Positions 59,916 to 64,000 of a stretch of DNA of 64,000 bases are shown in pieces. A program made the translations under genes and the position numbers. The DNA is from Crocinitomicaceae bacterium. GTDB lineage: Bacteria; Bacteroidota; Bacteroidia; Flavobacteriales_D; Crocinitomicaceae. The notes under the pieces were generated by a model that was given only the letters and a program-made list of their open reading frames with translations, had not been told where the DNA came from and did no database searches. Location: assembly GCA_023262855.1 (NCBI GenBank), contig JALQYQ010000068.1:1-64000 (forward strand), written 5' to 3'. The number at the start of each line of letters is the position of its first letter. The stretch's first letter is position 1.

Positions 59916-61115
59916 TTATTGATTAATTTCTACTATCCGAATATTCACCAATAATTGATTGAAATTTCTAAAAACGTTTTCCATTGGTAGACCTTTGAAA
60001 TAAAATTCTTCCCAAGAAAGAGTTTGATTTTTGTAATCAGAACGATGGATGTTTTGTGTGCTTAACAACGAACATTCCTTATCGTTTGTGTTTTCCTGAA
60101 CCAATTTTTGTAATTCTGCAAGGTCCTTTTTGATGGATGCTAATTCTGTTGAAGCTTGATCGTTTTCACTAAATAAATACGATTGAACAGGATCAAATTT
60201 ACTGCCGAATATCCGAATGGCTTTGTCTTCTGTAATGCCTTTTCCATCAGAAGAAATTGATTTTATTATTCCAACTTTTAGGTTTTCAATTTTCAAACAC
60301 AACTCATTGGCTTTTGTGCGAATCAACATCTGACTTTCAGAAAGCGAATCAGATTCCTTCTGTTGGCTTAAATATATATAACTCGCCAATAATTGATCAT
60401 CTGAATTGAAAACTGCTTCTTCTACAGCATGACTTGAACGCAAATTAGTCAGCGTGAAAAGCAAACCTCCTGCTGTTAGAATCAAAATTGATGAAATAAT
60501 GGTGTTCGTTTTTGTTTCTGGATTACGTATTCCGCCAAAGAAATAGATTGGTAGAAATAAGAAGAACAAAATACCAAGAGAACTTGTCCATAAGATGTGC
60601 GCAAAAGGCCAATGCATCACTTTGAAGAGAGTTGCTAGACAAATGACAATTCCAAAAATGGTTGCAATGCCGATGAGTAGTTTGTCTTTGCTTTGTTTTT
60701 GTTCCTTTACCTTTAAAATAGAAAGGATTGGAAGAAATAGGAAGCAGAAAAACACAATTCCAGTGAGCAACATCACAGCAGCTCCGGGCCAATGCATAAT
60801 TTTAAACAAAGAACCAATTATAAAGGTGAAAGCTGAAAAAGCTCCACTCAAGATCATGACTTTTTTCATGGCGTAATAATTTTTAAATGTTAGTAATAAC
60901 TGTGTCTCTTCTTGAATTTCCCGAAGCTCATGTTTGTAAAAACGGTGAATAATGCTTCGGTAAAATTCTTCGAAGTTGCTGTTGGGTAGCATTTCTGTTT
61001 CAATTACACAACAAATGTGGTCCAGGAGATCTAGCTGCAGCTCCTCCGACTCAATTCCATTACGTCTAATGTCCTCAAGAATGAACGATATGTGTTCGTC
61101 TTTTAAAACATACAT
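59916..61115 (-). CDS. Membrane protein with two GldL-like HWPG segments
   Basis: This 399-residue protein has a helical cytoplasmic N-terminal part (DHICCVIETEMLPNSNFEEF) and about six membrane segments. Two of them carry GldL-type motifs: LFKIMHWPGAAVMLLTG and LFKVMHWPFAHILWTS. GldL is the type IX secretion and gliding motor protein; here the motifs occur twice and the rest is unlike GldL. A periplasmic or cytoplasmic coiled-coil tail follows. It is 1 bp downstream of a PadR gene, so the regulator probably controls it. Confidence 0.75.
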   Translation of the reverse strand: MYVLKDEHISFILEDIRRNGIESEELQLDLLDHICCVIETEMLPNSNFEEFYRSIIHRFYKHELREIQEETQLLLTFKNYYAMKKVMILSGAFSAFTFIIGSLFKIMHWPGAAVMLLTGIVFFCFLFLPILSILKVKEQKQSKDKLLIGIATIFGIVICLATLFKVMHWPFAHILWTSSLGILFFLFLPIYFFGGIRNPETKTNTIISSILILTAGGLLFTLTNLRSSHAVEEAVFNSDDQLLASYIYLSQQKESDSLSESQMLIRTKANELCLKIENLKVGIIKSISSDGKGITEDKAIRIFGSKFDPVQSYLFSENDQASTELASIKKDLAELQKLVQENTNDKECSLLSTQNIHRSDYKNQTLSWEEFYFKGLPMENVFRNFNQLLVNIRIVEINQ

Positions 61116-61116
61116 T

Positions 61117-61455
61117 TTAACCCATTTTTGGTTTTAAGTCTAACAGAAAAATCATCGTGTCGATGAAGTCCGAAAACTCATTCACCTTTTCTGTTGCGAC
61201 TTTTTTACCGGTTTGAGTTACTGAGTAATACTTACGAATGCGGTTACCTACATTCACTACATCTGTGGTTAAAATTCCTTGTGCTTCCATCGCGTGCAAT
61301 GTAGGATACAACGCGCCTTCAGTCAATTGAATTTTTCCACCCGTAAGGTCTTTTACTTTCTGAGTAATCTCATACCCATACATTTTGTCGCTTTCCGACA
61401 ATAACTTTAAAATAATCGTTTTTAAAGTTCCTTTTACTAGTTCTGATGAATACAT
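61117..61455 (-). CDS. PadR-family transcriptional regulator
   Basis: This 112-residue winged-helix protein has the PadR pattern: KGTLKTIILKLLSESDKMYG, YEITQKVKDLTGGKIQLTEG, ALYPTLHAMEAQGIL and RKYYSVTQTGKK. Such regulators are repressors that respond to small molecules or membrane stress. The stop is 1 bp from the membrane protein gene, a common PadR arrangement. A TATATTTG box lies 4 bp before its ATG and 16-bp-phased TATATAC repeats follow upstream. Confidence 0.92.
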   Translation of the reverse strand: MYSSELVKGTLKTIILKLLSESDKMYGYEITQKVKDLTGGKIQLTEGALYPTLHAMEAQGILTTDVVNVGNRIRKYYSVTQTGKKVATEKVNEFSDFIDTMIFLLDLKPKMG

Positions 61456-61570: not shown

Positions 61571-61603
61571 ATAAAAAAAAGACCCCGAAAATCGGAGTCT
61601 TTT
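61571..61603 (-). terminator. Terminator after the His-rich peptide gene
   Basis: AAAAGAC (61577-61583) pairs with GTCTTTT (61597-61603) and CCGA with TCGG inside, one mismatch, followed on the minus strand by eight T. Confidence 0.85.
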
Positions 61604-61626: not shown

Positions 61627-61827
61627 TTATTTCTGTTTGTTTGAAGCGTTGTTTTGCTCATGTAGTTGATGGTGTTGTGTATGATGTTTGTGTGTTTGAC
61701 AATGTTCTGTTTGAGTTCCACAATGTTGTTGGTGACCGTGGCAATGTCTTGGAACAAATGCTGCGAGACTTCCGAACGTTAGTAGTGCTGTGACTGTTGC
61801 GATGATGATGCTTGTTTTTCTTTTCAT
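61627..61827 (-). CDS. Small secreted His/Cys-rich peptide
   Basis: This 66-residue product has a signal peptide (MKRKTSIIIATVTALLTFGS). The mature part is extremely rich in His and Gln with three Cys: RHCHGHQQHCGTQTEHCQTH followed by KHHTQHHQLHEQ. This composition suggests binding of Cu, Zn or Ni in the periplasm, like a metal sponge or chaperone. It is 18 bp after the 78-residue membrane protein gene and ends at a strong terminator. The role is inferred from composition only. Confidence 0.75.
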   Translation of the reverse strand: MKRKTSIIIATVTALLTFGSLAAFVPRHCHGHQQHCGTQTEHCQTHKHHTQHHQLHEQNNASNKQK

Positions 61828-61845: not shown

Positions 61846-62082
61846 TTAACAATGACAGTGTTGTTTGTTTTTGAATTGTGTGTATTCTTCGTCTGACATT
61901 TGTCTTATTTTATCCATAAATGCGTTGCGATAATCTGATTTGCATTGGCGTATTTTGCGTCCCATAAACAAACGGAACAAGAGGAAGAAGATTAAAAAGG
62001 AAAGGATGATATGCGGAACAAGAAATAATAAAGTACCTATCAAAATTCCTTTTGCGATTGATTTAAAAATTGATTTTGTCAT
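61846..62082 (-). CDS. Small membrane protein with Cys/His tail
   Basis: This 78-residue product has one long hydrophobic stretch (GTLLFLVPHIILSFLIFFLLF, about residues 16-36) and a basic tail with IRQMSDEEYTQFKNK, ending QHCHC. The C-terminal HCHC suggests metal binding. The motif M[ST]DEE-x-x-x-FK also occurs in the 105-residue protein upstream, so both belong to the same small family. The gene is first in the second transcription unit of the ECF system; its upstream region carries promoter copy B. Confidence 0.7.
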   Translation of the reverse strand: MTKSIFKSIAKGILIGTLLFLVPHIILSFLIFFLLFRLFMGRKIRQCKSDYRNAFMDKIRQMSDEEYTQFKNKQHCHC

Positions 62083-62114: not shown

Positions 62115-62146
62115 TGAAGACGAACGTGCTTGATTTTTACTTTAAA
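62115..62146 (-). promoter_or_regulatory. ECF-type promoter element, copy B
   Basis: On the minus strand TTTAAAGTAAAA (62146-62135) is followed after 9 nt by GTTCGTCTTCA (62125-62115), 33 bp before the ATG of the 78-residue gene. Both blocks and the spacing are identical to copy A before the sigma gene; the 9-nt middle differs. This is what a -35 and -10 recognised by one ECF sigma factor would look like. Confidence 0.7.
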
Positions 62147-62152
62147 TAGGGC

Positions 62153-62180
62153 AAAAAAAAATCCACCTACTTGGTGGATT
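62153..62180 (-). terminator. Terminator of the sigma/105-residue unit
   Basis: AATCCACC (62160-62167) pairs with GGTGGATT (62173-62180), loop 5, followed on the minus strand by T residues. It separates the first and second units of the ECF system. Confidence 0.85.
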
Positions 62181-62197
62181 CCTTTAAAATAGTTGAT

Positions 62198-62515
62198 TTA
62201 TTGACCGCAACGATTTTTAAATTGCGCTTTAAATTCTGCTCGCTCTTCGTCTGTCATTTGCATCATTTTTTCTTTCATGGCTTTTCGTTCCTTAAAATTT
62301 GGTTTTCCTTTTGGTCCTCCAAAATGGGATCCACCAAAAAGGATTCTAGATAGAATAAATAATCCAGCTGCCTGCCAATACGTGATTTCAGGTAATTGGA
62401 AAATATCTGGCATTAACCAATTCCATAAGAGCATAATCACCCAAATAAATGCTGTTATTCCGATTGCAATTAATGGAATAAATAAAAATGCTTTGCGTCC
62501 CCAGTTCTTGTTCAT
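62198..62515 (-). CDS. Small two-TM membrane protein with MTDEE motif
   Basis: This 105-residue protein has two hydrophobic segments (AFLFIPLIAIGITAFIWVIM and YWQAAGLFILSRILFGG) and a charged tail with KMMQMTDEERAEFKAQFKN ending RCGQ. The tail shares MTDEE-x-x-x-FK with the 78-residue protein. It is 10 bp from the sigma gene and so shares its transcript; as a membrane protein next to an ECF sigma factor it could act as anti-sigma or sensor, but has no known anti-sigma domain. Confidence 0.75.
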   Translation of the reverse strand: MNKNWGRKAFLFIPLIAIGITAFIWVIMLLWNWLMPDIFQLPEITYWQAAGLFILSRILFGGSHFGGPKGKPNFKERKAMKEKMMQMTDEERAEFKAQFKNRCGQ

Positions 62516-62525
62516 ATGTTTCGTT

Positions 62526-63077
62526 TTAAAATGTTAATTCGTTGTATAAATGATTCAATTTATTGCGCAGGTGTTTCACTGCATAGCCTTTGCGACTGAT
62601 GATTGTTTTGATGTTTTCTCCTTTTTGATCGGCAATTTCTTGTAAGGTAAAATCTTCCAATTCGTTTAGGACAAATACTTCACGTTGATTACTTGGTAAT
62701 TCATCCAAGGCGTCCATCAATTCTTCCCAAAAGAGTTCTTTGAAATGACCAAGCTCCGGATTGTTGCTGTCGTCAAGTAGTAAAATGTCCTTAAAGTTAA
62801 ATTCGCCATCTTCATCTGAATACGCATAGTTTTCAAGTGAATCAGTTGTTTTTTTGCGATAGCGATCTGTTACTTTATTGCGGGCAACTTGATAAATCCA
62901 AGCGCCAACATTTTCCACATCTTGCACATTTGTTAAATTACTCAGTTGATACCAAACATCTTGAATAATGTCTTCAGCATCTTCGGTTGTTTTGACTTTA
63001 CCTCGAACAAAGCCGAACAATTTTTTTCCAAATTGTTGTACAATTGATGTTAAGGAAGTTGACCTTTGTTCGCTCAT
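62526..63077 (-). CDS. ECF-type RNA polymerase sigma factor (second)
   Basis: A group IV sigma factor of 183 residues from the ATG at 63077 (MSEQRSTSLTSIVQQFG); ATGs at 63089 and 63101 are also in frame, but promoter copy A ends 6 bp before 63101, and by comparison with copy B (33 bp to its ATG) the 63077 start fits best. Region 2 shows VKTTEDAEDIIQDVWYQL and GAWIYQVARNKVTDRYR, region 4 LPSNQREVFVLNELEDFTLQ and IADQKGENIKTIISRKGYAV. It probably activates its own gene and the second unit. Confidence 0.88.
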   Translation of the reverse strand: MSEQRSTSLTSIVQQFGKKLFGFVRGKVKTTEDAEDIIQDVWYQLSNLTNVQDVENVGAWIYQVARNKVTDRYRKKTTDSLENYAYSDEDGEFNFKDILLLDDSNNPELGHFKELFWEELMDALDELPSNQREVFVLNELEDFTLQEIADQKGENIKTIISRKGYAVKHLRNKLNHLYNELTF

Positions 63078-63106
63078 CGAATAGTTCATAATTAGTTCCA
63101 TGCTCT

Positions 63107-63138
63107 TGAAGACGAACCATGAAACCTTTTACTTTAAA
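63107..63138 (-). promoter_or_regulatory. ECF-type promoter element, copy A
   Basis: On the minus strand TTTAAAGTAAAA (63138-63127) and, after 9 nt, GTTCGTCTTCA (63117-63107). It matches copy B at 23 of 23 block positions with the same spacing, and implies autoregulation of the sigma gene. Confidence 0.7.
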
Positions 63139-63246
63139 AAAGTTGAATTTTTTTCAAAGGTCATTTAATTTCTGATACTTACATTGTTAAAAATTGATAA
63201 TTCATGACGGATTGTCACCTAGGTAACTTTTGGCAAGATTTTAGAC

Positions 63247-63254
63247 TAACTTTG
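63247..63254 (+). promoter_or_regulatory. -7 box three bases before the ABC transporter start
   Basis: TAACTTTG-AGC-ATG, another leaderless-type arrangement. A second near-match TAACTTTT lies 24 bp upstream. Confidence 0.45.
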
Positions 63255-63257
63255 AGC

Positions 63258-64000
63258 ATGAGTAAAAAAAACGTATCCTTTTCATGGGCATTTAAAGAGT
63301 TTATTTGGCCGAGAAAGAAAATAATATCGATTGGTTTAGTCCTAATTATTATTCGAAGTTTAGCAGGTTTAGTGCTGCCGTATGCAAGTAAAAATTTATT
63401 GGATGTGGTTGTGCCTTCAGGGGACAAACAAGCCCTTTGGATTTTAATTGTCGTAGTTTGCGCGTCGCTTTTGGTGCAAGCTGTCAGTTCATATTCACTG
63501 ACAAAATTGCTGAGTGTTGAAGCGCAGCGTTTAATTTCTGTTTTACGCACGAAAGTGCAGCGTAAGTTGTTGACTTTGCCAATTAGTTTCTTCGATAACA
63601 ACAAATCGGGAGCTTTAGTTTCACGCGTTATGACGGATGTTGAAGGTGTTCGAAACATTGTTGGAACAGGCTTGGTGCAATTAATAGGAGGAACAATTAC
63701 TTCGATTATCGCCTTGGTGTTTTTGATTAAAATCAATGCATGGATGACTTTATTCGTTTTGTTGCCTGTTATCATTTTTGCATTTATAGCTTTAAAGGCG
63801 TTCGCATATATTCGTCCAGTGTTTAGAGATCGCGGGAAGATCAATGCTGAGGTTACGGGCCGATTAACAGAAACGATGAACGGTGTTCGCGTCATCAAAG
63901 GATTTAATGCCGAAGAGCAAGAGAATAAAATTTTCGAAAAAGGGGTGGATCGTTTGTTTGAAAACGTGAAAAAATCCTTGACGGCAACAGCGATTATGAC
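63258..64000 (+). CDS. ABC transporter permease/ATPase, N-terminal part (truncated by the window)
   Basis: The ATG at 63258 opens a frame that continues to the right edge, 247 codons. It encodes the start of an ABC exporter half-transporter: membrane segments IISIGLVLIIIRSLAGLVLP and ALWILIVVVCASLLVQAV, then RLISVLRTKVQRKLLTLPIS, FFDNNKSGALVSRVMTDVEG, and EVTGRLTETMNGVRVIKGFN, the conserved coupling region. The nucleotide-binding domain lies beyond the window. Opposite-strand frames here are shadows. The substrate is unknown; MsbA-like lipid or drug exporters share this pattern. Confidence 0.9.
   Translation, partial: MSKKNVSFSWAFKEFIWPRKKIISIGLVLIIIRSLAGLVLPYASKNLLDVVVPSGDKQALWILIVVVCASLLVQAVSSYSLTKLLSVEAQRLISVLRTKVQRKLLTLPISFFDNNKSGALVSRVMTDVEGVRNIVGTGLVQLIGGTITSIIALVFLIKINAWMTLFVLLPVIIFAFIALKAFAYIRPVFRDRGKINAEVTGRLTETMNGVRVIKGFNAEEQENKIFEKGVDRLFENVKKSLTATAIM

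Follow-up and report, generated by a model that had tools for sequence, protein, structure and literature searches.

The window, i.e. the whole 64,000-nucleotide stretch of Crocinitomicaceae DNA that was analysed, contains on its minus strand two neighbouring units of small genes, each preceded by a copy of the same bipartite element. The first unit consists of a gene for an ECF sigma factor of 191 aa (62526..63101; Pfam Sigma70_r2, 2e-10, and Sigma70_r4_2, 5.3e-10) and a gene for a 105-aa protein with two transmembrane (TM) segments and a basic two-helix tail (62198..62515), hereafter the two-TM protein, which is a candidate anti-sigma factor. Between this unit and the second element, a terminator-like hairpin with a T run is predicted at 62155..62185 of the minus strand (RNA fold -15.3 kcal/mol, z -4.85), which is absent from the terminator list of the pattern scan. 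The second unit encodes a 78-aa membrane protein (61846..62082) and a 66-aa protein rich in His and Cys, whose sequence has a signal-like N-terminus (61627..61827). Past this unit, the pattern scan placed a terminator-like hairpin at 61577..61603, also on the minus strand; the scan is weak evidence by itself, since it found 2 sites where 1.0 were expected. The gene descriptions in the initial annotation hold, except that its label of one TM segment for the 78-aa protein is less certain: the hydrophobic stretch is about 35 residues long by eye and may be one long helix or a hairpin. AlphaFold predicted a single long helix followed by a short one in the tail (pLDDT 79.9, pTM 0.34), and a counterpart of this protein scores as two hydrophobic segments. 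Further along the same strand, genes for a PadR-type regulator and then a 399-aa protein that matches GldL_N and GldM_1st (59916-61455, -) form a separate operon, which is not directly behind the element. On the other side, a divergent ORF (63204-64000, +), ABC-exporter-like by eye, runs off the window, and no copy of the element lies in its direction.

The window has exactly two copies of the element, TTTAAAGTAAAA-N9-GTTCGTCTTCA: P1 (63138-63107, minus strand) upstream of the sigma gene, and P2 (62146-62115, minus strand) upstream of the second unit. As the initial annotation had stated, the two copies are identical at 23/23 block positions with a spacing of 9 nt in each and different middles, and we found that their flanks differ as well. 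Dinucleotide shuffles of the window gave 0.00 matches to the element with up to 3 mismatches. The genome-wide search that had been proposed as a check (3.28 Mb in 73 contigs, 94.7% complete) returned the two window copies only, both at 0 and at 3 mismatches, and the reversed-pattern control gave 0 matches in the whole genome. With the looser core TTAAAGTAA-N14-CGTCT and 1 mismatch, 4 matches were obtained vs 4 in the control; as the control count is equal, the 2 extra matches look like chance. A wide regulon in the host genome was therefore rejected on the basis of both searches of this 94.7% complete assembly, and the regulon appears to consist of the two local units only. The layout seen in relatives is a -35 box TTAAAGTAA, 14 nt and CGTC, or equivalently TTAAAG, 17 bp and CGTC. 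P1, with -35 TTAAAG(TAA), 17 bp and -10 CGTC, and P2 are exact matches. Judged from relatives, the element is an ECF promoter with -35 TTAAARTA, about 17 bp and -10 CGTC. A scan for sigma-70-type promoters found 8 vs 9.3 expected, i.e. no excess over chance.

The ATG of the sigma gene lies 5 nt past P1 and 9 nt past CGTC (window 63101-63111, -), and in several relatives ATGGA is found equally far from the element. With the start so near the element, also in relatives, the mRNA may be leaderless or have only a very short leader. A second in-frame ATG is found 12 nt further in.

The Pfam matches of the sigma factor above cut-off are Sigma70_r2, Sigma70_r4_2 and Sigma70_r4 only, and there is no region 3 domain, which places it in the ECF group (group 4). 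It scored 72.9 bits against TIGR02937 (sigma70-ECF; cut-off 42.9), and the best PDB sequence match of the profile of its family was SigW. The best-scoring named NCBIfam model was PRK12513, far below its cut-off (102.9 vs 206). A scan of genome contigs yielded 13 related-sigma loci, 12 from Bacteroidota at 42-71% identity and one from Acidicapsa at 29%. The nearest relatives of the sigma factor include those in a Paludibacter MAG, in an unplaced Bacteroidia MAG and in two genomes of the same family (best 70%, L164). The two-TM gene was not found in 25 genomes of the same genus, some of which are incomplete. The GC content of the module region (0.34-0.37) is at the low end of that of its surroundings (0.35-0.41). 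Horizontal transfer and repeated loss of the module are both possible readings, and we claim neither.

For the two-TM protein, we aligned the window's sequence with 79 of the 128 sequences that remained after thinning 136. In this 80-member alignment W31, N32 and L55 are invariant, and the pattern is LWNxLxP...ITFWQAxGLLVLSKILFGGF, a variable linker, and MxxEEREKFK...RC. The AlphaFold model, of modest confidence (mean pLDDT 76.9, pTM 0.39), has helices at 5-38, 46-60, 74-85 and 89-103, i.e. two of TM length and a two-helix tail. By the positive-inside rule, judged by eye, we infer that both ends are inside and that the basic tail is cytoplasmic. The window's protein belongs to no Pfam or NCBIfam family. 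Among the 80 members, 7/80 have weak Metal_resist matches (best 2.7e-5; the window's protein has none) and 3/80 match DUF3106, and no class I anti-sigma domain (ASDI or zinc-binding ASD) is among their Pfam matches at E <= 0.01. A structure search with the model gave nothing at E <= 0.001, and a PDB sequence search with the profile gave nothing at E <= 1. In class II anti-sigma factors (CnrY type), sigma2 and sigma4 are wrapped by a short two-helix segment in the cytosol; for the two-TM protein a two-helix tail is predicted, and no sequence or fold match was found. The two-TM protein, encoded beside the sigma gene wherever both were found, is the best candidate anti-sigma factor and probably holds the sigma factor in check. 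The initial annotation had also pointed to an M[ST]DEE-xxx-FK tail common to both membrane proteins, and this was borne out at the profile level: the tails of the two-TM protein and the 78-aa protein align with hhalign probability 95.1 (E 3.3e-8), and the two-TM profile picks up the 78-aa gene unaided in the host genome (E 3.3e-4) and the second-unit protein in the Paludibacter MAG (E 3.6e-5). The tail is missing from some second-unit proteins of relatives. Counterparts of the 66-aa protein occur in L033-L036, L163-L165 and other loci, and His is present there too.

The two-TM family was found in 67/395 phylum genomes at E <= 1e-3 (the weakest dozen being doubtful) and in 55/395 at E <= 1e-10; other draws gave 22/299 order genomes and 102/395 class genomes at E <= 1e-10. 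The own genome is part of each of these draws, and the draws overlap. The loci examined were the best hits of each search, with 16 class hits in new genomes (mostly weaker) and several phylum hits left out. In 52/52 loci (L046-L097, of which the window is one), the sigma gene adjoins the two-TM gene on the same strand, upstream of it in 51 and downstream in one (L075). In 75 new loci, a sigma gene was found in 73, always adjoining the two-TM gene, upstream in 71 and downstream in 2. We assembled a set of 63 loci with both genes, namely the window, 11 related-sigma loci and 51 others, and accepted an element 5' of the sigma gene at no fewer than 7/9 plus CGTC and a second copy at no fewer than 8/9 plus CGTC, the latter being sought up to 1.6 kb past the two-TM gene, with some loci shorter. 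The element was present 5' of the sigma gene in 48/63 loci and a second copy downstream of the two-TM gene in 19/63 (window included in both); by these rules no element was found in 15/63 loci of the first set and 20/73 of the new loci. Separated by the base at -35 position 6, second copies are found in 19/26 loci of the G subtype and 0/22 of the A subtype. The core matches at 13/13 positions before the sigma gene in 9/12 Bacteroidota related-sigma loci, and 0/200 letter shuffles of the upstream stretch were as good. The second copy often precedes a gene for a small membrane protein, frequently followed by one for a small secreted protein, and in several genomes also by an Hsp20-like protein. 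Relatives of the switch are present in many Bacteroidota.

A link was observed between the -35 box and the recognition helix of the sigma factor. In the first set, loci with TTAAAGTA have Lys at sigma residue 165 (window numbering; ENI-K-T; 26 of 48) and loci with TTAAAATA or TTAAAATG have Asn or Gln there (22 of 48), so that 48/48 agree. The link was then put to 75 unexamined loci, 15 of them from the earlier phylum listing, in which the element was scored without position 6. Among the 53 with an element, residue and base agreed in 51 (Lys with G 27/28; non-Lys, i.e. Asn, Gln or Pro, with A 24/25), the exceptions being a locus with Lys and A and another with Asn and T. The -35 base therefore fits the recognition-helix residue of the locus's own sigma factor in 99/101 pooled loci with an element. 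In a tree of the 101 sequences, from which the residue-165 column was left out, there are 4 changes of the residue and 3 of the base, and the 2 independent pairs on supported branches are both concordant (p 0.5, not significant alone). As there are only 3-4 changes on the tree, the link is strong as a regularity and weak in the number of independent events. That a Lys at the start of the recognition helix would read the downstream end of the -35 box is in keeping with sigma4-DNA complexes. Such a residue-to-base link would help to predict the regulons of uncharacterised sigma factors.

Outside the module, exact core sites were sought in 23 genomes, where 47 were found, 28 at the module and 19 distal. 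The number of distal sites is not in excess of the reversed pattern (19 vs 27). However, 15/19 distal sites were intergenic and within 150 nt before an ORF vs 5/27 of the reversed pattern (p = 6.7e-5), and in these five control sites the ORF starts at an ATG inside the reversed pattern (3) or right at its end (2). As the count is not above the control, the distal sites are supported by position and recurrence only. A second set of 20 genomes gave 24 sites in all vs 6 in the control; of its 8 distal sites, L291, L292 and L293, without a plain target, were set aside, and in L304 the element is inside the ORF as called and upstream only if the start is later. Of the 19 distal sites of the first set, the remaining four are inside ORFs (L132, L136, L137, L143). 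L136 and L137 are equivalent positions in two genomes of Dyadobacter, with genes for a TetR-type protein, a 79-aa protein and an MFS exporter starting about 470 nt further on. The genes behind the intergenic distal sites of the first set and the retained ones of the second include TolC-type proteins heading or within exporter operons (L134, with RND matched; L141 and L303, with adaptor and pump by eye in both) and ABC exporters (L145, L281). Hsp20 is encoded together with a small membrane protein in L139 and, by eye, in L147. An epimerase-like protein lies behind the element in L146 and, by eye, in L144 and L148, which come from three genomes of a single genus. An MBL-fold hydrolase is encoded in L142, and an FAD monooxygenase of the Tet(X) superfamily follows an exact element in L296 (277-1455, -; 251 bits, far below the Tet(X) cut-off of 750). 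In L140, the element precedes a gene whose product weakly matches siderophore-interacting proteins, in an operon that ends in a CDF transporter. L135 and L138, each from a Dyadobacter genome, have two small proteins at this place, and L133 a ribosomal-protein look-alike. In other genomes, the regulon probably also covers exporters, detoxifying enzymes and Hsp20, and the distal genes suggest a stress by toxic compounds or of the envelope, with metals as one possibility.

Relatives were also found on plasmids outside Bacteroidota. A plasmid search at E <= 1e-15 gave 17 records (Pantoea 11, Caballeronia 2, Haliscomenobacter 2, Paraburkholderia 1 and Burkholderia 1), and stretches of three of them were examined (Pantoea dispersa, Burkholderia arboris and Haliscomenobacter). 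A two-TM homolog adjoins a sigma gene on the Pantoea dispersa (E 7.5e-33) and Burkholderia arboris (1.5e-27) stretches. In the former (L274:3537-4525), the two-TM gene, annotated as hypothetical, precedes the sigma gene, the reverse of the window's order. With the loosened pattern A[AG]TA[AT], 14-15 nt, CGTC, one site was found before each of these pairs, CAGCAATAT and CCACAATAT. Both sites have N14 and match the -35 box poorly, at 3 and 4 of the 7 scored positions, and they bear A where the sigma factors have Gln and Asn, in agreement with the residue-base link. The Pantoea MBL-fold gene adjoining the sigma gene shares 38% identity with the MBL-fold gene of L142 (E 4e-73), and no element was found before it. 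In the case of the Haliscomenobacter plasmid sigma factor (L275), there is no two-TM gene within the 5.5-kb stretch.

We consider it likely that the two units form an autoregulated ECF sigma module, a self-amplifying switch held by the two-TM protein. The sigma factor would read the element and so drive its own operon and the second unit, as the conservation of the element implies. The two-TM protein would be anchored in the inner membrane, its N- and C-termini on the inside, and would keep hold of the sigma factor through the basic two-helix tail. A disturbance of the envelope would make it release the sigma factor, which would then amplify itself and its inhibitor and produce the second-unit proteins. 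The second-unit membrane protein has the same tail and could therefore attach to this partner too, dampening or modulating the response. The initial annotation had proposed one regulon read by its own sigma factor, which is well supported by the conservation of the element before many sigma genes, the recurring second copy and the match of -35 base and helix residue; the likely anti-sigma role of the two-TM protein is an addition to that annotation. Its suggestion of a metal or oxidative stress found no specific support, no metal family being above cut-off, and metals are one possible signal.

Several other explanations of the locus can be considered. If the regulon is real, the two-TM protein could be a co-expressed envelope effector, with the sigma factor governed by transcription, proteolysis or an unlinked factor. 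The protein has no recognised anti-sigma domain, and a tail common to it and the second-unit protein would fit a family of effectors. Furthermore, the two-TM gene precedes the sigma gene in L075, L231, L232 and the Pantoea plasmid, and thus co-transcription, not inhibition, may be the conserved feature. However, the two-TM gene is kept beside the sigma gene across Bacteroidota and the Pantoea and Burkholderia plasmids, even where no second element is seen, and its basic tail, if cytosolic as the charge suggests, is where the sigma factor is; we regard the effector explanation as unlikely, although it deserves to be taken seriously. It is quite unlikely, in our judgement, that the module is a dedicated copper or zinc response of the CnrYXH type in which the His/Cys-rich protein binds the metal. 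Besides the composition of this secreted protein, the weak Metal_resist matches in the two-TM family, the weak match of the 66-aa protein to ZraP (18.7 bits, E 0.0016, far below the cut-off of 200) and the distal operon that ends in a CDF transporter would fit such a response. Nevertheless, the window's two-TM protein is without a Metal_resist match, its tail is taken to be cytosolic, in contrast to the periplasmic sensors of the CnrX type, and drug-type exporters and Hsp20 outnumber metal genes among the distal targets.

The element itself could belong to another regulator or another sigma factor, as the host genome has ten matches to this sigma factor, itself counted. This seems very improbable to us, since the boxes of the element are spaced as in ECF promoters and its -10 box is CGTC, its -35 base fits the recognition helix of the adjoining sigma factor in nearly all loci with an element, and it occurs nowhere else in the host genome. 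That the second copy is a recent, functionless duplication of upstream DNA would account for the identity of both blocks in the window, and is hardly credible given that the middle and flanks differ between the copies and that the second copies of the 19/63 loci have their own middles and in many cases precede genes of one type.

Autoregulated pairs of ECF sigma and anti-sigma factors are represented by RpoE-RseA and SigW-RsiW. Like these pairs in general, the module of the likely self-amplifying switch has a sigma gene followed by a membrane-protein gene, a self-promoter with a -35 box, about 17 bp and a CGTC-type -10 box, and a small stress regulon. Unlike them, its partner protein is without a recognised anti-sigma domain and has a short C-terminal tail after a two-TM hairpin, and a product of the regulon has the partner's tail. 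The CnrH-CnrY-CnrX system resembles the module in a small membrane-bound regulator with a short two-helix part and in the weak Metal_resist similarity of some members. The sigma-binding part of CnrY is N-terminal and CnrX-type sensors are periplasmic, whereas the two-TM tail is C-terminal and without sequence match to solved structures, and no CnrX-like gene was noticed beside the module. Metal_resist with LTXXQ motifs, the mark of periplasmic metal sensors and chaperones, is found neither in the window's two-TM protein nor in the 66-aa protein. The available part of PMC7406223 describes CnrY as a class II anti-sigma factor with two helices.

In Bacteroidota, according to the available parts of PMC13114119 and PMC13088901, the Dma/Reo dual-membrane anti-sigma factors are membrane partners of ECF sigma factors, with a proposed role in envelope stress, and Reo is described as crossing the inner and the outer membrane as far as the cell surface. 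Such systems resemble the module as Bacteroidota ECF sigma factors with a membrane partner, and differ from it in that the two-TM protein, with 105 aa and two short TM helices, has no room for a periplasmic or outer-membrane part. In Flavobacterium psychrophilum, the SM6 promoters contain a CGT box, and an ECF/anti-sigma pair lies behind one of these promoters (PMC9723704, available part). They share with the module the CGT box of Bacteroidota ECF promoters, but the SM6 genes include type IX secretion components. The class I anti-sigma domain was reported near 6% of Bacteroidetes ECF sigma factors vs 32% on average, and broken synteny or other modes, e.g. other anti-sigma classes, were suggested as reasons (PMC7406223, available part). 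The two-TM family, in 55/395 phylum and 102/395 class genomes, could fill part of this gap. By title or the start of the abstract, we found no paper that describes the module, and the available parts of PMC7406223, PMC12596196, PMC13114119, PMC9723704 and PMC13088901 do not describe it; an entry in the ECF Hub catalogue may exist. The parts of the module are of known kind, and its partner protein matches no named family. We tentatively suggest an undescribed class of anti-sigma factors, which may combine a C-terminal tail grip behind a membrane hairpin, a sigma-controlled second tail as feedback brake and a one-residue -35 preference (Lys for G, Asn/Gln for A), in many Bacteroidota and some Proteobacteria. 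A small self-contained module with a clear promoter rule is testable in a laboratory strain.

In a divergent group of nine loci (L084, L086-L092 and L094), TGCAAT with a CGTCTTTA-like box was seen by eye at the matching upstream place; this group perhaps represents the same switch with another -35 box. In addition, a family-less protein of 70-80 aa (IFKTN ... VDLxDxDKILR) recurs behind the element or inside the sigma operon. It is encoded, with 76-77 aa, behind the distal element in L149 (605-838) and L295 (1560-1790), and by eye in L150 (505-738), and look-alikes lie past the two-TM gene in L041-L043 and L169-L171.
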